Shown here piece by piece: positions 3,362 to 51,543 of a stretch of DNA of 60,448 nucleotides (within the stretch, counting starts at the first letter, position 1; every line of letters begins with the position of its first letter). Made by a program: the position numbers and the translations under genes. The DNA is taken from the IMG/VR virus record IMGVR_UViG_3300021479_000021, positions 1 to 60,448 of that record. The stretch is one strand, 5' to 3'. The DNA is from a virus. The notes under the pieces were generated by a model. That model was not told where the DNA came from and ran no database searches. It worked only from the letters and a program-made list of their open reading frames with translations.

Positions 3362-3922
3362 ATGGATAATAAACTATTAAACAAATGGGTACCTATTCTT
3401 AAATGTTTAGATATTGATCCCCTGAACTATACTAAGCTATCACAATTTTGTGAAACATATACTATAAAAAGAAGTGAAGAAATTGTTCCTACCGGCGATA
3501 GCTTACATCTAAATTCTGTAGGTGTACCCACTAATGTAGAAGGTGCTAATCTTAATCTTTTAGCTATGTGTATTAAAACTCTATCTAAATTAGATAATCT
3601 TGATCATATAATCTTCACTAATTTCATAAGTGATTTCGAAACATTAGAAACAAAAATAGTATGGTCGGTAGGTGAAATTTATATGATGACTGGTATAGAT
3701 ATGATAGAAAGTCAAGCTATGGAAGAAATATCTAAATTTCTATCAAAAGAAAACTTCAAAGATAATGAAAAAATATTAATAACATCCCCTATTGATGCTT
3801 GCACAATAGTAAAAAGTGATTCTAATCAACCCTTAGGATTTAAGTATTTGACTCGTTTCAAGAAAATAAATATTGATTATTCTACATCACAAACAGTGAT
3901 TGATACAAAAGAACAGGCTTAA
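3362..3922 (+). CDS. Unknown 186-residue protein
   Basis: A soluble acidic protein of unknown family, last gene of the rightward group starting at 2934. Its final codons run into a perfect inverted repeat that acts as the terminator. No catalytic motif recognised. Confidence 0.7.
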   Translation: MDNKLLNKWVPILKCLDIDPLNYTKLSQFCETYTIKRSEEIVPTGDSLHLNSVGVPTNVEGANLNLLAMCIKTLSKLDNLDHIIFTNFISDFETLETKIVWSVGEIYMMTGIDMIESQAMEEISKFLSKENFKDNEKILITSPIDACTIVKSDSNQPLGFKYLTRFKKINIDYSTSQTVIDTKEQA

Positions 3923-3934
3923 GCCTGTTCTTTT
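3907..3934. terminator. Bidirectional intrinsic terminator
   Basis: A perfect 28-nt palindrome (AAAAGAACAGGCTT and its complement) with A- and T-runs at its ends lies between the convergent genes ending at 3922 and 3945. It includes the stop of the left gene. Confidence 0.8.
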
Positions 3935-3944
3935 GTACTTAGTA

Positions 3945-5705: not shown

Positions 5706-6056
5706 TTATGCTATAATCATCTTAGGTGTTTCTAACCTCCAATTGAGATGCTTCATCATCAGTACAGTGTATGGCCCACCTCTACCTATTGGTTTTGATA
5801 TTCTCCATTTTAAATGTTTCAATATCAGCATAGTTATAAAACTTTCGATCTCATAAGGCTGTAATCTATATTTCTTTTCAAAAACTGACCATATTGAATT
5901 ATAATCAACGGCTAAATATCCATTTTCTTTGTTATTATACATCACTACAAAATCATCCAAATCCTTAACCACAATATTACCTGGATTTTTAGAATCCAAA
6001 GATATAGATCCTAATTTAGATAAGAAAAACTCCTCCAATGATATTATTTTTTTCAT
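5706..6056 (-). CDS. Array-associated small protein, copy A
   Basis: A 116-residue protein related to the products at 15937 and 26333. Shared features are an N-terminal EEFFLSKLGSISL segment, PGNIVVKD, a VVMYN strand, the signature YNSIWSVFEKKYRL and a C-terminal LKHLKWR. The last part of the gene is also repeat-spacer-repeat DNA: repeat A1 begins at about residue 77 and the frame continues through a 30-nt spacer into repeat A2. The function is unknown; constant linkage to the arrays suggests a role in binding or making the array RNA (inference). Confidence 0.7.
   Translation of the reverse strand: MKKIISLEEFFLSKLGSISLDSKNPGNIVVKDLDDFVVMYNNKENGYLAVDYNSIWSVFEKKYRLQPYEIESFITMLILKHLKWRISKPIGRGGPYTVLMMKHLNWRLETPKMIIA
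5725..5826 (-). CRISPR. CRISPR-like mini-array A (two repeats, one spacer)
   Basis: On the minus strand a degenerate 36-nt repeat (5791-5826) is followed by a 30-nt spacer (5761-5790) and a better-conserved 36-nt repeat (5725-5760: GATGATGAAG ... CTCAATTGGAG ... AACACC). The geometry is exactly that of the other two arrays. The second repeat keeps the central stem through a G-U pair. I found no match of this spacer elsewhere in the window by eye. The array overlaps the 3' end of gene copy A. Confidence 0.7.
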
Positions 6057-7393: not shown

Positions 7394-7435
7394 ATTTTTA
7401 GTGGTTAGTTGAACAATATATGAGTTTATACGGAT

Positions 7436-7464
7436 TTTATATCTAAATGTTTCAAAAAGTTTTA
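7436..7464 (-). promoter_or_regulatory. Phage promoter motif, copy 1
   Basis: Read on the minus strand: AAAACTTTTTGAAACATTT, two bases, then ATATAAAA. The same block occurs at 8060-8088 and 11120-11149 upstream of other minus-strand genes and in similar form at 34184-34212. It is placed about 45 nt before the start of the gene at 7130-7393. ATATAAA resembles the T4-type late -10 box. Confidence 0.6.
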
Positions 7465-7476
7465 GTTTTTTTACTA

Positions 7477-8013: not shown

Positions 8014-8059
8014 ATCCTTTAAGTAGTTTAGTTAAACAAATATATACATTTAAACGGAA

Positions 8060-8088
8060 TTTATATCCAAATGTTTCAAAAAGTTTTA
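8060..8088 (-). promoter_or_regulatory. Phage promoter motif, copy 2, overlapping a start codon
   Basis: The minus strand reads AAAACTTTTTGAAACATTTG then GATATAAAT, matching copies at 7436 and 11120, and lies upstream of the gene at 7477-8013. On the plus strand the same bases hold the ATG and first codons (MFQKVL) of the gene at 8071, so the DNA has two uses. Confidence 0.6.
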
Positions 8089-8877
8089 AGTTTTTCTGAA
8101 TTCATAAAAGAAAATGCAAATATAGCTAGTTCTATTTCAGCTAAAGGTCTGGAATTCACCAACAAAATTAAATCTTTAGATACTGGTAAACCGCAGTACA
8201 AACATATGCCTTGCTATGAATTTGTATACAAATTTATGAAAATGTATAAACCTGACCTTCCATCAGCTATATTAACAGATCTTAAAATGGCATACAAAAA
8301 GGATATTGGAACCCTTCCAGCTAAAGAATATCTTGAATTAACAAAGAAGAGCTTGCAGGTACCAAGTCAACCAGAAACAATGAGAGGCCTTGAATATGTG
8401 AATCAAAAATATGGTATTGGTAGAATAGTAACTGTTGACCAGGCCAAAATAGGTGATGCAATATCTTTTTGGGTTTATCAATTTATAGAGTTCTCAAGAA
8501 AAGAGAAAAACTACTCCTTCCCTACTACAGAAGCAAGTTTTAAACAGTATTTATTAAAGAACAAATTAGTTGAATCTACATTACCAGAATGGTTAATTGA
8601 AGGTGCACGAATAGAATATGGTCACTATGGTATTATCTCAGATATTGATTCAGAATATTTATACCTAACATCTTCCGGAGAAAAGAATGGTTGTAATGGT
8701 ATATGGAATGGTGTACCTAAATCAGAGTGCTCGGAAAATTTTACTAAAATAAGAAAAGCTGATTTAAAGAAATTTCAAAACAAATCATTTGATGATATGC
8801 TTTTCAGATCTACTGACGAACTTACAAATAAAAGGATTCAAATAATAATGAGAAGTTATATACTGAATTTTATATAA
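8071..8877 (+). CDS. Papain-like (CHAP/NlpC-type) protein with capsid-targeting-like N-terminus, frameshifted near the end
   Basis: The N-terminus (MFQKVLSFSEFIKEN) fits the T4-type capsid-targeting pattern seen in other proteins here. The body has the papain-like layout: MPCYEFVYKF (candidate Cys), KIGDAISFW and GHYGIISD (candidate His). There is no signal peptide, so it may travel in the virion. The frame stops at 8877, but a coding-like -1 frame (KLYTEFYISIDEDIKEILN and on) runs to TAA at 9048-9050. An indel in the AAAA run at 8830-8833 would join them, giving about 325 residues. Confidence 0.6.
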   Translation: MFQKVLSFSEFIKENANIASSISAKGLEFTNKIKSLDTGKPQYKHMPCYEFVYKFMKMYKPDLPSAILTDLKMAYKKDIGTLPAKEYLELTKKSLQVPSQPETMRGLEYVNQKYGIGRIVTVDQAKIGDAISFWVYQFIEFSRKEKNYSFPTTEASFKQYLLKNKLVESTLPEWLIEGARIEYGHYGIISDIDSEYLYLTSSGEKNGCNGIWNGVPKSECSENFTKIRKADLKKFQNKSFDDMLFRSTDELTNKRIQIIMRSYILNFI

Positions 8878-10831: not shown

Positions 10832-10859
10832 AAAAGGTGAGATTTAAATCTCACCTTTT
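10832..10859. terminator. Bidirectional intrinsic terminator
   Basis: A perfect 28-nt palindrome (AAAAGGTGAGATTT and complement) lies between convergent genes ending at 10828 and 10860 and is flanked by T- and A-runs. Confidence 0.8.
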
Positions 10860-11084: not shown

Positions 11085-11119
11085 TTTATTTGATAGTTTA
11101 TTTAAACAACTATACGTAT

Positions 11120-11149
11120 TTTATATACAAATGTTTCAAAAAGTTTTAA
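11120..11149 (-). promoter_or_regulatory. Phage promoter motif, copy 3
   Basis: The minus strand reads AAAACTTTTTGAAACATTTG then TATATAAAA, almost identical to copies 1 and 2, located upstream of the gene at 10860-11084. Confidence 0.6.
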
Positions 11150-11150
11150 T

Positions 11151-11996
11151 TTAATAAAATTTATAGTCTGTTACCTTCTGACCCTTCATAATTGAAATCA
11201 TATAGTTTTGATATTTCTTCTGTGTCACGGTATAGTATATAGCATCCCTTCTATAAGTATCAAATTCTGGCTTATACTCATTATCTCTATCTTTACCGAG
11301 AACTATTATTATGTTATAGGCACCACCAAAATTCTTAACATAGAAACCAATATTATTCAAATCATATTTTAACAAACATGAGTGATGTCCAGGAGAAATA
11401 ATAAACTTAGCAGCCCAGTTGTACTTCTTATAATATTCAAGGGCCTCAGGACTATATTTGTTTCTCAACTTATCTGTACTAAATTCTCCGGTTACAATCT
11501 CTGTTACAATTTTAACATCTTTTTCAAAAGTTATATTCTTTTCAATTGTTTCACTTCTTTCTGATACACAATAAAACAGTTTAGAATTGATATAATGATT
11601 GATAGCAGAATTTGAATTAGATAGTTCTATACCATACATTTGATTATAATACTGACTTAGTTCGGCCTCAAGTGAAAGCTTCCTAGAATATTTAAGCTCT
11701 GTCATACCTTTACTTTGTCTATAATTATTTACAAATTCCATGATATTTTTATATTCATTCTGATATTGGATATTATTAGAATCAACATCTTTTATACGTT
11801 CATTCCAGAAATTAGTACTATCCTTCATTTGTTTCAAATAGTAATAATCCCATTCTTTATAGTTTTTAGGCTTTACAAGGACATTAAAATTAGCTTTATC
11901 AAATACCTTAGGATATTTAAGCCATTTCTTTACGGGACCCGTGAATGATATCAGGAGGCTGGTTATAAACAGAATGATTAGGATATACTTTTTCAT
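11151..11996 (-). CDS. Exported CAP/SCP-like protein
   Basis: A signal peptide (MKKYILIILFITSLLISF) precedes a 260-residue mature part. Residues around 88-120 (FVNNYRQSKGMTELKYSRKL then a helix rich in Ala/Leu) follow the opening of CAP (SCP/PR-1) domains, and HHSCLLKYDLNNIGFYV resembles the conserved His and IG strand near the domain's end. CAP domains bind lipids or peptidoglycan-related ligands outside the cell. The match is by pattern only. Confidence 0.5.
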   Translation of the reverse strand: MKKYILIILFITSLLISFTGPVKKWLKYPKVFDKANFNVLVKPKNYKEWDYYYLKQMKDSTNFWNERIKDVDSNNIQYQNEYKNIMEFVNNYRQSKGMTELKYSRKLSLEAELSQYYNQMYGIELSNSNSAINHYINSKLFYCVSERSETIEKNITFEKDVKIVTEIVTGEFSTDKLRNKYSPEALEYYKKYNWAAKFIISPGHHSCLLKYDLNNIGFYVKNFGGAYNIIIVLGKDRDNEYKPEFDTYRRDAIYYTVTQKKYQNYMISIMKGQKVTDYKFY

Positions 11997-12996: not shown

Positions 12997-14250
12997 TTAA
13001 AGTATTATCAAATCCACAGTGGATTTGAAAGAATTTAAGCTTGAAGAACTACGAGATGAGTCGTAGAGAACTCTATAACTGTATAAGAGTTTCTTTTGTT
13101 TAAATGTATAATATAATTCTTTAAATGTGCTGAAAACCTCAGGTACCATTTCCTTCCAACGGGTAGGTACAAGATTCACACATTCTCTGTTTATACTATC
13201 ATATTCATTCAAACCTTTACTTAGAAGAAAACTTCTGTAAGTAATTTCTTTTGATGCAGCTACTGAATCGTAATCATTAATATTTTCTAACTGCCCAATA
13301 AAGGAGCTATATTCGGGCCTTACTTCTTTAAATTTAATATCATTCAAAGTAAGTCTTTTCTTTAAATTATTTACAAAATTATTACGGTTCCATGAGTTGA
13401 GTAATTTATTCAGTTTCTTACCTTTCTTATGATTCTTAGATTTCATATTTAAGTTTTCTAATCCAACACAAGATACCCTGTAGTGCTTACATAAGCTTAT
13501 TACATGTTTAGATATAGTAACGGTTTCATACAACTTTTTATTCGTTGAAGCTTCATTCAACTTTCTTAAATCAATGATCTCTTTATAAACTTCTTTCTTG
13601 TTATTATAATTAATATCCATAATAGAAAGACCTATGTAATTAGGATTTAAATCTAAACCTAAATATCTATTTCTCTTTGGTTCATATACTGATTTAGTGA
13701 GTAAAGAAGGATCATAACTGATCCATACATTACTATCTGAAATCATAAAGTTGAAATAAGCCTTCTTTTCTTTACAAAGTAATTGAATTTTATAAAGATT
13801 TGCTCTTTCACCTTTTGATAATTTTAATGGTATCAAATATTTAACACCACATTTAGGCTTGAATATCATCATATTATTTAAAATATCTAATTCAGCTTTC
13901 CTATTACCACAATGATCTAATCTACTCCCTCTAATTGAAATAGGAATATTTTTATTATAAGTATTTTTTCGCCCATATTTTTTATTAAAGAACTCTTTCT
14001 TACCACCAAAGTATATCTTTTCTTCTCTATTTAATTCAGATGCTATTTTAACAGCTTCTTTAATGAAGGAAGCATCAAGTAATTCAATATTTTTCATATT
14101 ATCTTTTACTAGCCATTCTAATTTCGAAACATTAGTTACTTTATCCTTCATGATTCTATTATAAGCAAACCTTACCACGGAACTATACTGCTCTATAAAC
14201 CTAATATCTTTAAATACACTTTGTGATTTCTTTATCGTTACTATTTGCAC
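12997..14250 (-). CDS. TnpB-like RuvC nuclease lacking the zinc finger
   Basis: 417 residues from GTG 14250. The three RuvC motifs are intact: LGLDLNPNYIGLSI (Asp), CVGLENLNM (Glu) and NDYDSVAASKEI (Asp, with the D-x-x-AA pattern). RPEYSSFIGQL corresponds to the TnpB stretch before the zinc ribbon, but the CxxC ribbon itself is absent, so RuvC-III follows immediately. TnpB enzymes cut DNA guided by an omega-RNA that overlaps their 3' end; the 3' end here is unusually rich in hairpins. No TnpA is near. It could be active or a repurposed regulator. Confidence 0.75.
   Translation of the reverse strand: MQIVTIKKSQSVFKDIRFIEQYSSVVRFAYNRIMKDKVTNVSKLEWLVKDNMKNIELLDASFIKEAVKIASELNREEKIYFGGKKEFFNKKYGRKNTYNKNIPISIRGSRLDHCGNRKAELDILNNMMIFKPKCGVKYLIPLKLSKGERANLYKIQLLCKEKKAYFNFMISDSNVWISYDPSLLTKSVYEPKRNRYLGLDLNPNYIGLSIMDINYNNKKEVYKEIIDLRKLNEASTNKKLYETVTISKHVISLCKHYRVSCVGLENLNMKSKNHKKGKKLNKLLNSWNRNNFVNNLKKRLTLNDIKFKEVRPEYSSFIGQLENINDYDSVAASKEITYRSFLLSKGLNEYDSINRECVNLVPTRWKEMVPEVFSTFKELYYTFKQKKLLYSYRVLYDSSRSSSSLNSFKSTVDLIIL
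13008..13093 (-). ncRNA. Candidate omega-RNA-like structured 3' end of the TnpB-like gene
   Basis: Three consecutive inverted repeats lie within the last 32 codons: 13068-13093 (GAACTC/GAGTTC-type stem), 13049-13066 (CTACGA/TCGTAG) and 13008-13028 (TCAAATCCAC/GTGGATTTGA, nearly loopless). The encoded peptide is a low-complexity Ser-rich tail, as expected if RNA structure constrains the DNA. In TnpB systems this is where the guide RNA scaffold lies, with the guide just downstream (about 12960-13007). Function is inferred. Confidence 0.35.
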
Positions 14251-14296
14251 TAAATACTTTATTCATTTCGATAAAGTATATATCTGAAATAATGTG

Positions 14297-15742: not shown

Positions 15743-15940
15743 ATGACAGATATATTTAAAAAAGATACCTTTTTGAAATTCAATTCAGAAGATAATAGAA
15801 TCGAACAAATCATTGATGTTGATAATGAAACACTCTTTACAAAAAAAAGTAATGATAAAGTCGTCAAATACAAAGAAAAAGATATTCGAGTAAAGATCTA
15901 CAATGGCCTTTGTACATTACATAAAAATTATCCAGTATGA
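15743..15940 (+). CDS. Small unknown protein
   Basis: A 65-residue charged protein between the ATPase and the array-associated gene. Its stop overlaps the next start as ATGA (15937-15940), so translation of the two is coupled. No family recognised. Confidence 0.65.
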   Translation: MTDIFKKDTFLKFNSEDNRIEQIIDVDNETLFTKKSNDKVVKYKEKDIRVKIYNGLCTLHKNYPV

Positions 15941-16284
15941 CAGCGGAGGATTTTTTGATATTGAAGTTAGGGAGTGTTTCTTTAGACAAAGAATATCCAG
16001 GTAATATCATTATTAAAGATTCGGAAGGATATACTGTGATGTACAATAGAAAAAATCGCTATTTAGAGGTTGATTATATAAATATATGGTCAGTTTTTGA
16101 GAAGCAATATAACATGAATTATACTGATATACAATTATTTATAACTAACATGATGTTGAAGCACCTCAATTGGAGGCCAGAAACACCTTGTTACCAGTGG
16201 GTATGGGAAAACTTTCCGATGTTGAAGCACCTCAATTGGAGGCCAGAAACACCTTTATCAATTGTAGATACACCAGGACCATAG
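15937..16284 (+). CDS. Array-associated small protein, copy B
   Basis: The unique part is about 71 residues: EDFLILKLGSVSL, PGNIIIKDSEGYTVMYN, YINIWSVFEKQYNM and DIQLFI. From residue 72 the frame enters the array; since a repeat plus spacer is 66 nt (22 codons), the peptide LKHLNWRPETP is read twice before a TAG at the end of the second spacer. The same gene family heads arrays A and C. The function is not known; RNA binding or array processing is inference from linkage. It is the last gene of the operon from 14599. Confidence 0.7.
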   Translation: MTAEDFLILKLGSVSLDKEYPGNIIIKDSEGYTVMYNRKNRYLEVDYINIWSVFEKQYNMNYTDIQLFITNMMLKHLNWRPETPCYQWVWENFPMLKHLNWRPETPLSIVDTPGP

Positions 16285-16450
16285 ATGTTGAAGCACCTCA
16301 ATTGGAGGCCAGAAACACCTTTATTGGCAAGTTTAATACCTTCTTCAATGATGTTGAAGCACCTCAATTGGAGGCCAGAAACACCACCATGTTCTCAGGC
16401 TTTAAAAGAAATGAGATGTTGAAACACCTCAAATGGAAAACACAAACAAG
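16152..16450 (+). CRISPR. CRISPR-like array B (four identical repeats plus a degenerate one)
   Basis: Identical 36-nt repeats lie at 16152-16187, 16218-16253, 16284-16319 and 16350-16385 (GATGTTGAAG ... CCTCAATTGGAGG ... AACACC), with a degenerate end repeat at 16415-16450. Spacers are unrelated to one another: three of 30 nt and a last one of 29. The repeat has a CCTC/GAGG stem and near-complementary ends (GATGTT/AACACC). The 36/30 geometry is that of type VI-B arrays. Spacer 2 (16254-16283) matches 19860-19889 perfectly. No cas gene is in the window. Confidence 0.85.
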
Positions 16451-19802: not shown

Positions 19803-20246
19803 CTACAATAACATTCTATTAATCTCTATATCATTATATTCAGTATGTTGTTCGATCCATTTATCAATTGTAGATACACCAGGACCATACCGGCCAATTT
19901 GTAAAGGAATATAATCAATCCGGTAGTCTTCAAAAAACAAAGCTTCATTGTTTAATAATACAAATAAATCATTTTCACCTATATTACCAGTATATTCAAT
20001 TAAAATATCAATATCAGAATTAGATCTGTAGTTACCAATAACTCTACTACCAACAAGAGCTACCTCAAGCACTTTTATACCAGAAGATAACTCCATATCC
20101 AAGACATGTTCTAAATGTACAATTATCTCATCAAAAATTATATCACAATTTTCCAGTGTATCTAAATCCGGATCCGAAATAATTTTATTAGGTTGCGACT
20201 CCTTACGATCAAAATCTTCATCAAATGAATCATTAAAAATCTCCAT
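19803..20246 (-). CDS. Minimal nucleotidyltransferase; contains the array-B spacer match
   Basis: 147 residues with the polymerase-beta-type signature VGSRVIGNYRSNSDIDILIE (near residues 65-84), the GS and DxD metal-binding core. Proteins with this core transfer nucleotides to proteins, RNAs or small molecules, and many are toxins (MNT type) or phage modifiers. The second conserved Asp is likely in YRIDYIPL. Bases 19860-19889 (codons for about GPGVSTIDKW) are identical to spacer 2 of array B, so that spacer RNA is complementary to this mRNA. Confidence 0.75.
   Translation of the reverse strand: MEIFNDSFDEDFDRKESQPNKIISDPDLDTLENCDIIFDEIIVHLEHVLDMELSSGIKVLEVALVGSRVIGNYRSNSDIDILIEYTGNIGENDLFVLLNNEALFFEDYRIDYIPLQIGRYGPGVSTIDKWIEQHTEYNDIEINRMLL
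19860..19889 (+). promoter_or_regulatory. Site identical to array-B spacer 2
   Basis: All 30 bases equal 16254-16283 in the same orientation. The flanks do not match the repeat, so identity ends exactly at the spacer limits. The gene here is on the minus strand; an array transcript would pair with its mRNA about 30-40 nt before the 3' third ends. Confidence 0.85.
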
Positions 20247-26300: not shown

Positions 26301-26384
26301 TTGAGGTGCTTCAAGAACTACCTTTTTTGCCGTTATACACTCCACGTAGGTTTTTCAGGCCTACAATTGAGGTGCTTCAAGAAC
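26301..26384 (-). CRISPR. CRISPR-like mini-array C
   Basis: On the minus strand: a 36-nt repeat (26349-26384, GTTCTTGAAGCACCTCAATT then TAGGCC ... AAAACC), a 30-nt spacer (26319-26348) and a second repeat of which only the first 18 nt (26301-26318) are intact. The 5' 18 nt of both copies are identical. The array starts inside gene copy C and ends in decayed sequence. No spacer match seen in the window. Confidence 0.65.
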
Positions 26385-26617
26385 ATATCTATTATAAACG
26401 TTTGAATGTCTTTATAATTCATACGATATTCCTTTTCAAAAATTGACCATACATGTTCATAATCAACATATAAGTAGCTATTTTTTCTATTGTACATCAC
26501 AACATATCCTTCACTATCTTTAATAATAATAATATTATCACAGTATCTTTCTTTTTTTATAGAAATAGTAAACTCACTTATTTTATTAATAAAAAATTCC
26601 TCAGCAGATTCTTTCAT
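26333..26617 (-). CDS. Array-associated small protein, copy C
   Basis: 94 residues, paralogous to the proteins at 5706 and 15937: AEEFFINKISEF, IIIKDSEGYVVMYN, YEHVWSIFEKEYRMN, DIQTFI and the terminal LKHLNCRPEKP encoded by the first repeat. The frame stops in the spacer. Copies B and C share 14 consecutive residues (IKDSEGY...VMYNRKN apart from one change). Confidence 0.7.
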   Translation of the reverse strand: MKESAEEFFINKISEFTISIKKERYCDNIIIIKDSEGYVVMYNRKNSYLYVDYEHVWSIFEKEYRMNYKDIQTFIIDMFLKHLNCRPEKPTWSV

Positions 26618-32699: not shown

Positions 32700-32740
32700 A
32701 TGCTCACGACATTAATGTCGTGAGCATCTTTTTTATTTTT
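32700..32740 (+). terminator. Strong intrinsic terminator
   Basis: A 28-nt perfect inverted repeat (ATGCTCACGACATT and complement, 32700-32727) followed by a T-run, 12 nt after the AAA ATPase gene. Confidence 0.9.
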
Positions 32741-44217: not shown

Positions 44218-44247
44218 AAAAAAGGAGCTCTATTGGGCTCCTTTTTT
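44218..44247. terminator. Bidirectional intrinsic terminator
   Basis: AAAAAAGGAGC, a short loop, GCTCCTTTTTT lies between convergent genes ending at 44215 and 44230 and overlaps the stop region of the latter. Confidence 0.8.
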
Positions 44248-47200
44248 ATTTAGTCGTTCTTTCTGTTTAAGATCAACTTTAGCTTTTTTAATAGCTTCCT
44301 TCAAATATTCTCTTACATCATCTTCAAGATTTTTACCAGTCTTTAACTCATTGTAAATATATTGTGGATCAGCACCTTGTTGTTCAATTAAATATTTTGT
44401 TTTTTCTAGTGATGCAACCTGGTCACCACTCCAAGATTTTCTAGCTGCGTTAATACCAAGATCATTAATATTGATTATCTTACCTTTGTATTTATTAAAC
44501 AAAAATTCTAATCCTTCATCAGATTCACCATTATAAGCATATGATTCAACCAACTTATTTATTTCTTCATCTGTTAATTGTGGACCATTTTCTATCAGGT
44601 ATTTCATTATTTCATATGAGTATGTTGAGTATAACATTTGTTTAAATGTGTATTTAAACTTAAGATCCTCTACAAAATATTTAATGATTCCCATCATGTC
44701 ATTAATATTTTCATTGGATTGTTTTTTGACAGCCTCAGCAAAAGATGATATAATTATTTCAGATTTTTCTGATTTATTAAAATGATAACTTTTTGTTTCA
44801 ATGACTTTTCGATCCTTATAGTAGGCACCTTTACTTATAAGATATTTGACAAGTTCCAAATTACCACCTTTAATAGCACTTATTAAAGCAGTTCCGTTAT
44901 TAGATTCAAAACTTCTTGAACCAGAATTATATTTATTTAAGTCAACACCTAAACTTTCTAAAAATTTAACTATATCTGTATGACCATTGACTGAGGCCTT
45001 CAATAAATATAAGTTCAGATCTTTTTTATCTAATATATTATATTTCTGTCCTAACTTAAGAATATCTAAATGACCATTTGATGCAGCATATTCAAATATA
45101 GAATTACTTAAAATATTATCCTTAAATTTTTTGTACCCATTCTCAAGTGCAAAATTTAATATGTCAGTATAACCATTGTAACCAATCGTAAAATAATCTA
45201 AATCTTTTAAGGATGCACCATTATTAAATAATAATTTAACCATTTCTAAATCATCATTTTTACAAGCCTCATATATAGGAGCATGAGAATGTTTATCAGG
45301 TTCATTTACAGGACAACCATTTTTAATTAAATAAGCAACAAGTTTTGTATTATCAACAATTTTCTCTTCGTTTTCTTTACTATATTGGTCCTTTATTGCT
45401 TGAGTTATAGGAGCACTTCCAAGTTTCTTCAAATCAAGATTTTCTTTATCAATAAGTTTCTTTAATTGATCATATTTTTTATTTCTAATTGTATAACTTA
45501 CCCATTTATTTAAGGTATCCTTACATATTTCAGATAAATCATTATTTCTTTCATAAAAGAAATCCATGATCTCATGAACATCCTTATCACTTGCGTATTG
45601 TATTATTGAATAATTATTATCAGGAGAAACCTTTTCACCGTAGTTAGTTTTTTTTAAACCTGATGGTTCAGCACCAGCTTCAAGAAACATTAAAAGTATT
45701 TTATTATTTAGATCTGTTTCTTCATCATAACGACCTGGGATAGTTGATAGAAATATTGAATTAGAAGAATTTGGTAAATTTGGATTTGCACCTTTATCAA
45801 GTAAAAACTTAATTTTATCTATATCTTTTTCATGTACAGACATACCCAATAATTCACCACCATCAACATTTATATCACCACCTCTTTTTAAGTATTCATA
45901 AAATCTTTTTTCATCATTTAAATGGTAGAAGAATTTTAATTCGTCTATTTCCTTCTTGTCAGAATTTTCTTCATCAAAGCAAGGCTCCGCACCTAAATCA
46001 AACAATTTTTTAGCTAATTCTACATTGAAAGAAAAATCTGGATTATTGATTAATTTTACCGGAATAGCTTGTATAGTAATAAACATTGGTGTTTCTCTAA
46101 AACGATTATAACTTATATTCATATTCAAGACACTTTTATCAAAAGCTAAAAATTTATCAATAAGTTCTTCATTTTTAAGATTAATAACATCAGGAAAAAA
46201 GGCCTTTATAGTTTCTTTATCGAATTTATAATTTTCAATATAAAAATTAATAAGTGGTATTTGAATATCTTGGGTTATATTTTTATTTCTATTTTCAATA
46301 GATAATTGTGAAGCTATATTATTCTTATCTTCATCAGAGAGCTCTTTAATTAGATTAGGAAACTGTTTGGATAAAAACATGAACAGTTTTATAGCTTGTA
46401 CCTTAGAAGCATAAACAATTTGATTTTGTGTGCTTATGGCTTTATTTGGTCTGATATTTTTAATATCTGTTAATGCGTATACCTCATCACTTGATCTGTA
46501 ACCTTTAGTGAGCAAATATTTATAAAAATCAACATCATCCATAGCTATAGATAAAGTTAAAGGAAATTTATAGTTTGTATGAATATGACAACCTTTATCA
46601 TACAAAAAAATAATAAAATCTTTGTTTTTCTGTGTCTGCATGGCTACATAATCAATATATTCATAATTAACAGAATTAACTTCAATAAATCCGTCTATTT
46701 TATAACCATAATCATTTATTAATTTGTTAAATAGTTCTTCATCACAATTAACGAGGGCTAAATTCATTACAGCATTATCATCAGTAAATGGATTCAAACC
46801 GTTATCGAATAAATAAAATATTTTTTCATTATCACTTGTTCTTATAGCTGCCTTAAACTCATATAATAATTCAATCTCTTTTTGTTTATCTTCTTTCTCT
46901 GAGATACTCATTGGTTTTAAAACATTCAGTGGAATATTATACTGTTTAGCATATTGATCAAAATCTCTGATTTGAGTATCATCTTTAAAATGTGCAGCAT
47001 TATTATTGTTACTTGGTTTGTATACATTACCATCTTGATCAATTGTAACACCAACTCTTGTGTGAATGTCAGAGAAAGGTACAGCAAAATCCCATATAGA
47101 ATATTGGGCATTAAATTTATATTCAGCTCCTACATAAGTATCCCAGTGTGTTTTAGAATCTTTTATACACCAGGATGTATCACTTAGTAAAGCTTTAGAA

Positions 47201-47844
47201 GCTGTAAAAGTATAAATTCTTGCTATAAGTAATTCTCTTTCAGGATTAGCATAAACTAATTCTGCTCCTTGTGTATTAAGAATTTTGTTTTTTATAAGAT
47301 CATAATCCCATTCCTGATTAACAAAACCTTCAAGGCTTTCTATTAATTCTGTTAGTGTTTTATAACGTGCCAGCTTTTTAATAAAAGCTTGTTGAGTTTC
47401 CTTGGGTAGTTTATTTAATTCTAATGCTAAGTTATCTACTTTACTTTTAGTATTTGTGTCAGCATCTCTATACCAATTTTTTTGTGCTGGTAATAAAGCA
47501 TTAAAAAATAGTTTAGCTTTTCTGTAGCTTTGAAGATCCCTTAGATCATCTTCAAGTTCTTCAAAATTTTGATATTGTATAACCGGCTTAGGTAACTGTC
47601 CAAGTAAATCTTTTAATTCAAACAAATTATCACTGAGTCTTTCAAGATCAATCATAGGGATCTTATCATCAAATCTGAATTTGGTAAACAGACCTAAAAA
47701 TCCAGGTCTTTTTTTAAGCCAGACCTGTATTTGTAAAAAATCAGGATCCTTGGGATCAATATTATTTTTTGTAATAACCGACTTAGCTTTTTGCATATCT
47801 TCATTCATGAGGTTGAATGAATCAAAATTCAGTACAAATGACAT
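44230..47844 (-). CDS. Large ankyrin-repeat SWCI-domain protein
   Basis: About 1,204 residues from ATG 47844 (MSFVLNFDSFNLMNEDM, targeting-like motif). The N-terminal 300 residues hold the NxIDPxDPD segment and the SWCI domain (DTSWCIKDS ... IWDF ... VGVTIDQDG) shared with the proteins at 18395 and 49675. Then many ankyrin repeats follow, e.g. DKIKFLLDKGANPNLP, LELVKYLISKGAYY, LEMVKLLFNNGASL. Ankyrins bind proteins. A head-packaged effector that binds host proteins is a plausible role. Confidence 0.75.
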   Translation of the reverse strand: MSFVLNFDSFNLMNEDMQKAKSVITKNNIDPKDPDFLQIQVWLKKRPGFLGLFTKFRFDDKIPMIDLERLSDNLFELKDLLGQLPKPVIQYQNFEELEDDLRDLQSYRKAKLFFNALLPAQKNWYRDADTNTKSKVDNLALELNKLPKETQQAFIKKLARYKTLTELIESLEGFVNQEWDYDLIKNKILNTQGAELVYANPERELLIARIYTFTASKALLSDTSWCIKDSKTHWDTYVGAEYKFNAQYSIWDFAVPFSDIHTRVGVTIDQDGNVYKPSNNNNAAHFKDDTQIRDFDQYAKQYNIPLNVLKPMSISEKEDKQKEIELLYEFKAAIRTSDNEKIFYLFDNGLNPFTDDNAVMNLALVNCDEELFNKLINDYGYKIDGFIEVNSVNYEYIDYVAMQTQKNKDFIIFLYDKGCHIHTNYKFPLTLSIAMDDVDFYKYLLTKGYRSSDEVYALTDIKNIRPNKAISTQNQIVYASKVQAIKLFMFLSKQFPNLIKELSDEDKNNIASQLSIENRNKNITQDIQIPLINFYIENYKFDKETIKAFFPDVINLKNEELIDKFLAFDKSVLNMNISYNRFRETPMFITIQAIPVKLINNPDFSFNVELAKKLFDLGAEPCFDEENSDKKEIDELKFFYHLNDEKRFYEYLKRGGDINVDGGELLGMSVHEKDIDKIKFLLDKGANPNLPNSSNSIFLSTIPGRYDEETDLNNKILLMFLEAGAEPSGLKKTNYGEKVSPDNNYSIIQYASDKDVHEIMDFFYERNNDLSEICKDTLNKWVSYTIRNKKYDQLKKLIDKENLDLKKLGSAPITQAIKDQYSKENEEKIVDNTKLVAYLIKNGCPVNEPDKHSHAPIYEACKNDDLEMVKLLFNNGASLKDLDYFTIGYNGYTDILNFALENGYKKFKDNILSNSIFEYAASNGHLDILKLGQKYNILDKKDLNLYLLKASVNGHTDIVKFLESLGVDLNKYNSGSRSFESNNGTALISAIKGGNLELVKYLISKGAYYKDRKVIETKSYHFNKSEKSEIIISSFAEAVKKQSNENINDMMGIIKYFVEDLKFKYTFKQMLYSTYSYEIMKYLIENGPQLTDEEINKLVESYAYNGESDEGLEFLFNKYKGKIININDLGINAARKSWSGDQVASLEKTKYLIEQQGADPQYIYNELKTGKNLEDDVREYLKEAIKKAKVDLKQKERLNKKGAQ

Positions 47845-47897
47845 TAATTTTATTGAGTTTGAATTATATATCAAATTTTACTAATATACAATACAAG

Positions 47898-49674: not shown

Positions 49675-51543
49675 TTAATTTGTTCTGTAAATATAATAGG
49701 TTTCACCTTCGAAATTTATTTCATGTTCTTTACCATCATAACGAGATAAACCGTGACCTCTACCATATTCATTAACACAATATTGAATGTAATCATCTTC
49801 ATTAATATATTTCATTAAAAATTTACCTGTTTTCTCATCAGGTCTTTCTTCTCCGTTTCTTTTAATAAAACGGATAAGATCTCTGTCTTCAAGAGCTTGT
49901 AAAGGATCATCTCTTAATTCAGAGTTATAATCATCAGCTTTATCCTCAATTTTCTCAGCTGTATATTCCCAATACATATCGTTATCAGTATCTTCCATAC
50001 CAGAAATTTTTGTATCTAAAATATCAATTTGATCCAGAAGTTTTTTATATTTAATTGTATTAGGTTTTAAACCACTCAATTGTTCTTCAAGATTTTGTTT
50101 TTCTATTTCCAGATTATCTTTTAACTCTTCAACACCAGGTTTCATTTCTTTTTCTACATCATAAGATTCTGGGTTTTCTGATACTTTACTATAATCCACA
50201 CCAAAATCACGTACAACAGCATCAGTATCAATATAATCAGATATCATCCATTTACTCCCACAAACACCTATTTCATCTAAAACTTGCTTTAAATACTCCT
50301 TTGCTGCTTTATCAGCTTCTTCATCGGTACCAATTGCATATTCAGCATTACCATAAGCAAATAATCTCAAACCGTAGTAATCATGATTTTCCTCTTCCAA
50401 AGCATACACATCATCAGATTCATCCATAACACCAGCATCTACTAAATATTCTCTTAAGGCATGTGCCATAGGATCATTTTCCCATTCATTATCTTCTCTT
50501 CTTTCAGCTAATCTCTCAGCACGTCTTTTCACCTTTTCAGCTTCCATTTTAGCTTGAAATTCAACTATCTTTGCTTGTCTTACTTTTGCATCCTTTTTCT
50601 TATCAGCAAGCTCTTTTTTAGTAAGACCGACAAATACATTAGTTTTTATACCATAAACTTTAACAAATTCTTTAAAGTCTGTAGCATTATTTTGTGCATC
50701 CTGACAGTTTCTTATTATACCATCTTGTTTAACAGTAACACCTACCTGATGTAAAGGATCAGATTTTTCACGCTTGAGATCCCAAGCAAAATACTGAACA
50801 TTTCCTTCTGTTTCAACGTATTGTTTCCAAGAGTCAATACCACCATCTTTACTGATACACCAGTTGTAACTACCCAAATAATAAGAATCTATAAATTCAC
50901 CAATTCTGGCCACAATTATACTATTTTCTAAATCTTCATAGACTACTTTACTAAATTCAGTACTTTGTATTTTATGTTTTACTTTAGTTAGTGTTTCATC
51001 TTGAGACATTTTCTGTATGAATAATTCCATATCCATTATAAGATCTTCGAGGTCTTTGGCCCTACTTAAAGATTTAGTAAATATTTTTACTTCCTTTTCA
51101 TCAAACTCTGATATTGTTGCTGCCAGGTCTATATAAGGTTGTAATTTATCAGGTTCTAGCTCAAATAATTCTCTTCTTAAATCACCTATTACAGAGTTTA
51201 ATATTCTTCGAGCATTTCTTTCTTTATCCAGTTTCTGAAGATCATCGTATAATTCATGGAAGTCTGTATATTCTAAAACCGGCTTAGGTAATTTAGATAT
51301 AGTACCTTTGTTGGCTGTAATAAAATGAATGATTTGACGAATTTGTTCTAAAGTTACATCTTGTTCAAACATAAACTTTGTAAATTGACCCAAGTAGCTA
51401 GGAGATTTTTTAAGTAAGTTATCTCTTAATTCAATGTAATCTGGATTGTTTGGATCAATATCATTTTCCTGTAATACTTTCTTAGCAATCATAGCGTTTT
51501 CATTAACACCGTAAATATCATCATATTTCTTAAAAAACTTCAT
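49675..51543 (-). CDS. SWCI-domain protein
   Basis: 622 residues starting MKFFKKYDDIYGVNEN, a looser form of the targeting motif. Then NDIDPNNPDY and LGQFTKF match the protein at 44230 closely, and the core YNWCISKDGG ... QYFAWD ... VGVTVKQDG corresponds to the SWCI domain. The C-terminal half is acidic with a coiled coil (EIEKQNLEEQLSGL). It has its own terminator. Confidence 0.7.
   Translation of the reverse strand: MKFFKKYDDIYGVNENAMIAKKVLQENDIDPNNPDYIELRDNLLKKSPSYLGQFTKFMFEQDVTLEQIRQIIHFITANKGTISKLPKPVLEYTDFHELYDDLQKLDKERNARRILNSVIGDLRRELFELEPDKLQPYIDLAATISEFDEKEVKIFTKSLSRAKDLEDLIMDMELFIQKMSQDETLTKVKHKIQSTEFSKVVYEDLENSIIVARIGEFIDSYYLGSYNWCISKDGGIDSWKQYVETEGNVQYFAWDLKREKSDPLHQVGVTVKQDGIIRNCQDAQNNATDFKEFVKVYGIKTNVFVGLTKKELADKKKDAKVRQAKIVEFQAKMEAEKVKRRAERLAERREDNEWENDPMAHALREYLVDAGVMDESDDVYALEEENHDYYGLRLFAYGNAEYAIGTDEEADKAAKEYLKQVLDEIGVCGSKWMISDYIDTDAVVRDFGVDYSKVSENPESYDVEKEMKPGVEELKDNLEIEKQNLEEQLSGLKPNTIKYKKLLDQIDILDTKISGMEDTDNDMYWEYTAEKIEDKADDYNSELRDDPLQALEDRDLIRFIKRNGEERPDEKTGKFLMKYINEDDYIQYCVNEYGRGHGLSRYDGKEHEINFEGETYYIYRTN

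Follow-up and report, generated by a model that had tools for sequence, protein, structure and literature searches.

Probable mini-CRISPR arrays with type VI-B-like repeats, joined to a small and apparently mobile phage gene, one of them with a spacer identical to part of another gene of the same contig

INTRODUCTION

What does a short repeat-spacer array do in a viral genome when one of its spacers is a perfect copy of another gene on the same contig? The window analysed here, by which we mean the whole stretch of DNA studied, is a linear metagenomic virus record of 60,448 b (IMGVR_UViG_3300021479_000021) with 29% G+C. Its phage-type genes include those for a T4-type terminase and for a BACON-domain protein that has a Por secretion tail; hence, a phage of Bacteroidota is the natural reading of its source. 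An earlier note on this DNA had drawn attention to the match and proposed that the array regulates phage genes as antisense or guide RNA, or carries spacers taken from phage DNA. Our analysis supports this interpretation in part. Two features had been overlooked: the repeats resemble those of type VI-B CRISPR systems, and a small gene has its coding end in the first repeat.

RESULTS

Spacer 2 of array 1 matches a nucleotidyltransferase gene

The match lies in array 1 (16152-16450, + strand). Its first four repeats are identical (GATGTTGAAGCACCTCAATTGGAGGCCAGAAACACC, 36 nt) and its fifth is decayed; the spacers between them measure 30, 30, 30 and 29 nt. Repeat 1 (16152-16187, 36 nt, coding) is followed by spacer 1 (16188-16217, 30 nt, unmatched within the window), repeat 2 (16218-16253), spacer 2 (16254-16283), repeat 3 (16284-16319), spacer 3 (16320-16349, 30 nt, which resembles antisense coding sequence and for which no match was found), repeat 4 (16350-16385), spacer 4 (16386-16414, 29 nt) and repeat 5 (16415-16450, decayed, with 8/36 positions different), all on the + strand. 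Spacer 2 is identical to 19860-19889 (+) at 30/30 bases. The flanks are unlike on either side (CACC before and GATG after the spacer, ATCCA and CCGG around the target). Hence, the identity stops exactly where spacer 2 stops, as the earlier note had stated. The target corresponds to codons 120-129 of a 147-aa nucleotidyltransferase-domain gene on the opposite strand (19803-20246, −; Pfam NTP_transf_2, E = 1.3e–7). Spacer 2 is antisense to the mRNA of this gene, and thus has the right strand for the pairing that the note expected of an array transcript.

Array 1 and its target are 3.6 kb apart on one contig, with open genes in between. The best own-contig match of 600 shuffled spacers never exceeded 25/30, which bears out the view that the identity is far beyond chance. 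When all window spacers were searched against the window, as had been suggested, only spacer 2 gave an exact match, and the remaining five matched at background level (18-21 of 30); the window may be a fragment, so phage targets outside the 60 kb fall beyond this search.

Each array begins with the last codons of a small gene

The note had counted three arrays, and all three exist. Array 2 (26384-26301, −) has a first repeat that differs from array 1 at 5/36 positions (26349-26384), a 30-nt spacer (26319-26348), and a truncated second repeat (26301-26318) followed by an inverted repeat. Array 3 (5826-5725, −) comprises repeat 1 (5791-5826, 12/36 different), a 30-nt spacer (5761-5790) and repeat 2 (5725-5760, 4/36 different). 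The distal repeats are degenerate in most arrays of the window and of the other carriers described below; array 3 is an exception, since its more diverged repeat comes first.

Small paralogous ORFs carry the three arrays at their 3′ ends (15937-16284, +; 26333-26617, −; 5706-6056, −). In copy 1 the gene end is repeat 1, which encodes the last codons (LKHLNWRPETP), and the frame continues to a stop codon that spans the junction of spacer 2 and repeat 3. The frame of copy 3 is open through the entire array 3. In most pairwise comparisons, with array 1 rows of the window left out, repeat 1 is more conserved at the nucleotide level than the rest of the gene. Rare codons are kept in repeat 1 (CTC and AGG account for 3.0% of Leu and 8.3% of Arg codons, respectively, in the carrier contigs), and CTC recurs in most repeat 1 copies. 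Taken together, this conservation and codon usage suggest that repeat 1 is constrained as nucleic acid as well as protein.

The small protein family gave no convincing score in Pfam, PHROGs, NCBIfam or PADLOC. Its AlphaFold model is of moderate confidence (pLDDT 71) and matched nothing in the PDB at E ≤ 0.001. Among 395 Bacteroidia genomes there was one borderline match to the small gene, which we judged to be due to chance.

The gene and its array recur on otherwise unlike contigs

We found the small gene in three further IMG/VR contigs, which brings the known carriers to four, all of them possibly fragments. G001 (3300021479_000006, 166.9 kb) has two arrays. In G002 (3300050821_023931, 75.6 kb) the gene is present twice; one copy has just one good repeat, and the contig end truncates the other. 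G794 (3300011102_000405, 51 kb) is distant (39% identity) and has two arrays. Since the window has almost no other gene in common with G001 and G002, the gene with its array behaves, as far as these contigs tell, as a mobile cassette.

Spacers differ in every array of all carriers. An exact search of IMG/VR found spacer 2 in no other viral contig, the nucleotidyltransferase target gene is present in none of the other carriers, and all spacers together gave only chance-level matches against 50,697 phage records. The comparison of spacer and target among relatives, which the earlier note had advised, thus yielded no shared spacers and no shared target in the few relatives available. We therefore rejected a conserved set of antisense guides: spacer 2 is absent elsewhere in IMG/VR, there are no cross-carrier matches, and hits in the phage records are at chance level.

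Two observations concern cassette surroundings. In the distant carrier (L057:460-1221 and 1155-2072) different N-terminal regions precede the small-gene domain in fusion with it, and the array of one copy lies within a longer ORF whose end encodes a hydrophobic segment. Separately, the start of ORF 12997-14250 contains a conserved stretch (TTTAGTGCAAATAGTAACGAT..AAGAAATCACA..), located in the window at about 14190-14270 (−) and again in G001 at about 115290-115390 (−), although these contigs have almost nothing else in common; it is possibly a mobile or regulatory element.

The repeats are related to those of type VI-B arrays

To characterize the repeats, we derived a two-copy pattern from the positions common to the phage repeats only and ran it blind on 84,980 bacterial and archaeal genomes. 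Only two loci matched, both in uncultured Prevotellaceae. Each is a CRISPR array in which 36-nt repeats (GTTGTAGAAGCCTGTCGTTTGGATGGGTATAACAAC) alternate with 30-nt spacers, and each follows a large protein that PADLOC identifies as Cas13b; the one locus scanned with NCBIfam scored 515 bits for Cas13b (cut-off 150). No Cas1 hit was obtained in these two genomes. We then gathered more cas13b loci and extracted their repeats. The mean identity of phage repeats to cas13b-locus repeats exceeds that of their own dinucleotide shuffles for all eight phage repeats (P-value at most 0.00065), and the closest phage/host pair is identical at 25/36 positions. The phage arrays share 36-nt repeats, spacers of about 30 nt and common repeat positions with VI-B arrays of Bacteroidota (L033/L034; F. 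columnare, where repeats are 36 bp and new spacers mostly 30 bp, PMC8092290).

Unlike VI-B arrays, the phage arrays lie on contigs without cas13b, their GTTGT/ACAAC stem is broken, their hairpin is weak, and a gene replaces the usual leader. The outer stem is imperfect, with positions 2/35 mismatched in window-type repeats, and predicted folding energies are –1.4 to –5.9 kcal/mol versus –8.3 to –15 kcal/mol for host repeats; the paired ends and strong inner hairpin of VI-B repeats are therefore lacking. In VI-B arrays a leader-repeat hairpin blocks repeat 1 (PMC13187072). Tests for such a hairpin gave no clear signal here (two of 12 were near P-value 0.02-0.07, the others were not). Cas13b and Cas1 are absent from the four carrier contigs, which may be fragments, and a search of the carriers for a phage-encoded Cas13 or adaptation module found none. 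Given the broken outer stem and weak folding, the phage repeats are, by their sequence, VI-B-like rather than faithful copies, and we do not file them as a VI-B system. TIGR-like arrays were considered and dropped because the 30-nt spacers here sit between whole 36-nt repeats.

Repeats with GTTGT..ACAAC ends are found on other viral contigs too: 35 stretches (L064-L098), several on contigs above 200 kb, have 36-nt repeats of this kind and 29-31-nt spacers. As 23 of 24 tested records with such repeats lack cas13b (one carries it), VI-B-style arrays on phages may be commoner than described.

Some spacers match the carriers themselves, on either strand

Three of the 15 cassette spacers, one in each of three carriers, match the carrier's own contig. 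Besides spacer 2, spacer 1 of G001 array 2 is identical to G001:160706-160735 (30/30, sense). This stretch belongs to a glutamate-receptor-like ion channel gene that lies immediately upstream of the other copy of the cassette. A spacer of G794 matches a prophage tail gene of its own contig at 28/30, also sense. These two cases back the proposal of the earlier note that spacers were taken from phage DNA. The channel gene itself (G001:159986-161107, −) encodes a glutamate-receptor-like ligand-gated ion channel with SBP_bac_3, Lig_chan and Ion_trans_2 domains.

For comparison, we read whole 10 other viral contigs with GTTGT..ACAAC arrays, chosen by their repeat ends and maybe not all VI-B. Their 86 spacers include no perfect self-match and three at 28-29/30, with mixed strands. 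Perfect self-matches are thus overrepresented in the cassette (2/15 versus 0/86, Fisher test, P-value = 0.02), although the numbers are small. The three near-self matches belong to G801 (3300003323_001224) and G804 (3300003322_000968); one of them is sense and has synonymous differences only, as expected for alleles of sibling phages.

Self-derived spacers of mixed strand fit DNA-based acquisition, and judged by their matches the spacers look like samples of phage DNA taken without choice of strand. VI-B arrays similarly have DNA-derived spacers from both strands (PMC8092290); those of F. columnare acquire 30-bp spacers in trans, many of which are self-targeting or not directed at mRNA (PMC8092290). 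Of the three protospacers, that of G001 alone has the F. columnare acquisition motif TTTANNNNN on its 5′ side, and we do not count the motif as evidence. A fixed codon phase or strand of spacers was considered and rejected: codon-use scores gave a hint of an antisense frame in some spacers that was not clearly beyond chance, and the self-matches found later are sense. Host VI-B spacers aimed at these phages were also sought; the best match (24/30) is an AT-rich background match.

DISCUSSION

Virus-borne arrays that may borrow host proteins

Overall, we suggest that these loci are probably virus-borne, cas-less, VI-B-like mini-CRISPR arrays that borrow host proteins. The suggestion builds on direct observations, namely the array anatomy, the VI-B similarity, the recurring self-derived spacers with their mixed strands, and contigs without Cas1 or Cas13b. 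In this scheme a small, mobile phage gene would end in repeat 1, its last coding part, and the repeat-spacer units would come after it; a coding first repeat explains why gene end and repeat are one sequence. Most likely, host Cas1-Cas2 would act in trans, inserting phage DNA behind repeat 1 and duplicating that repeat. The spacers would then be samples of about 30 nt, from either strand, of this phage or of a close sibling in the same cell, and spacer 2 would be such a sample of the nucleotidyltransferase gene. Transcription of VI-B arrays starts at the leader end (PMC8092290), which matches the order of gene, then array. If the phage repeat is accepted, host Cas13b may process the array RNA. 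The crRNA of spacer 2 (spacer plus repeat 3) would match the nucleotidyltransferase mRNA, and antisense spacers such as this one would direct Cas13b to matching mRNAs, those of siblings and here the phage's own, while sense spacers would be passengers. The arrays would presumably serve against sibling phages. Against this explanation, the repeats lack a perfect outer stem and fold weakly, no leader-repeat hairpin was detected, no host repeat found exceeds 25/36 identity, the two cas13b genomes gave no Cas1 hit, no source was found for most spacers, and the more diverged repeat of array 3 comes first; moreover, perfect self-targeting would be costly were Cas13b active.

We entertain, as a tentative and rather doubtful extension, that the 3′ coding end of the phage gene is a CRISPR landing pad and that the arrays are host-written, self-updating Cas13b guides against siblings and the phage's own mRNAs. 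If true, this would be the first type VI virus-borne array and a case of a protein gene fused to a CRISPR array.

Alternative explanations

The lack of a perfect outer stem and the weak fold make Cas13b recognition of the phage repeats only putative, and make a decoy role a serious rival. Here, weak repeats would bind Cas13b without productive processing: as an RNA anti-CRISPR, the repeats would mimic host VI-B repeats and occupy Cas13b or divert spacer acquisition, and spacer content would hardly matter. A host-type repeat copied in a phage without cas genes, sometimes as one good repeat only (G002, array 2), weak hairpins, and the fact that two of the three self-derived spacers cannot target mRNA are all in keeping with this, and such RNAs (Racrs) are established for other CRISPR types (PMC10651486). 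However, arrays of up to five repeats and varied spacers suggest acquisition on several occasions, for which a solitary-repeat decoy has no need, and the closest host repeat (25/36) is far below the 90% identity of the Racr survey (PMC10651486). We consider a decoy improbable on balance. Regulation, one of the two ideas of the earlier note, here in the form of an array moulded to reduce how much nucleotidyltransferase the phage makes, draws on the exact 30/30 match, its antisense strand and the location of both partners 3.6 kb apart on one contig. The strand fits for spacer 2, but as a general function regulation is weakened by the other self-derived spacers of the cassette (G001 and G794), which are sense; sense guides cannot pair with mRNA, so a purpose-built antisense regulator does not fit. 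Spacer 2 also occurs in no other viral contig and its target in no other carrier, and spacers differ among all carriers. Such regulation therefore seems unlikely to us.

An assembly mosaic would place the array in one strain and the target in a sibling strain of the same metagenome, the two never having shared one genome. The window is indeed a linear metagenomic record, viral mini-arrays in the literature are directed at siblings, with the corresponding locus of the carrier mutated (PMC6858448), and other viral arrays contain near-self matches of 28-29/30. Yet array and target are only 3.6 kb apart with the intervening genes open, and an unrelated contig (G001) has a second perfect self-match, which leaves a mosaic with a slim chance. 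Finally, the locus might not be CRISPR at all but a protein-coding tandem repeat that ends a phage gene: repeat 1 is coding, a unit of 66 nt leaves the reading frame unchanged, and several arrays contain no in-frame stop over their full length. That spacer 2 copies another gene at the nucleotide level and in antisense, that the blind pattern scan returned VI-B arrays only, that the rare CTC codon (3% of Leu) is in most repeat 1 copies, and that spacers of 29 and 31 nt shift the frame render this highly improbable.

Relation to known viral arrays

Cas-less mini-CRISPR arrays aimed at related viruses are known from the Sulfolobales viruses SPV1 and SPV2 (PMC6858448; review PMC11656645). Like them, the arrays described here are short, cas-less and viral, with repeats of a host type (closest host repeat found, 25/36) and spacers from the same virus group (3/15 here), often from near the array. 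VI-B-like repeats, a coding first repeat, several arrays per phage and a perfect self-match set the phage arrays apart. SPV loci are mutated so as to prevent self-targeting (PMC6858448). This is not so in the window and G001 (30/30 each), and the G794 match is 28/30. As with Racrs (PMC10651486), a host-type repeat is borne by a phage without cas genes, and some loci have a single good repeat. Unlike Racrs, which are solitary repeats close to a host repeat, these are mostly multi-repeat arrays with spacers and have low identity to any host repeat found. Huge phages carry compact CRISPR arrays with host-like repeats that are proposed to use host Cas proteins (PMC7162821), but the arrays here are VI-B-like and fused to a mobile small gene. 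Four points are new: the affinity to type VI, a mobile gene that contains the first repeat as coding sequence, the presence of several copies of the cassette in one phage, and self-matches that are perfect. The repeats point to the RNA-targeting Cas13b, and the Racr survey recorded solitary viral repeats for all CRISPR types but type VI (PMC10651486). It becomes testable whether host Cas13b serves phages as a weapon, as a regulator or as a decoy, and whether the adaptation proteins of hosts add sequence to phage genomes.

Other features of the window

An AT-rich 57-nt element with the core AAATGTTTCAAAAAGTTTTA occurs in three intergenic copies (7415-7471, 8039-8095 and 11099-11155) and may be a promoter or regulatory site of the phage. 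Close to the ends of genes lie perfect palindromes of 28-34 nt (3904-3937, 10832-10859 and 32700-32727), which are likely terminators. The product of the ORF at 44230-47874 (−) has 1214 aa and contains ankyrin repeats; in its N-terminal part it is similar to the 49675-51543 product, and both match the same G001 region.
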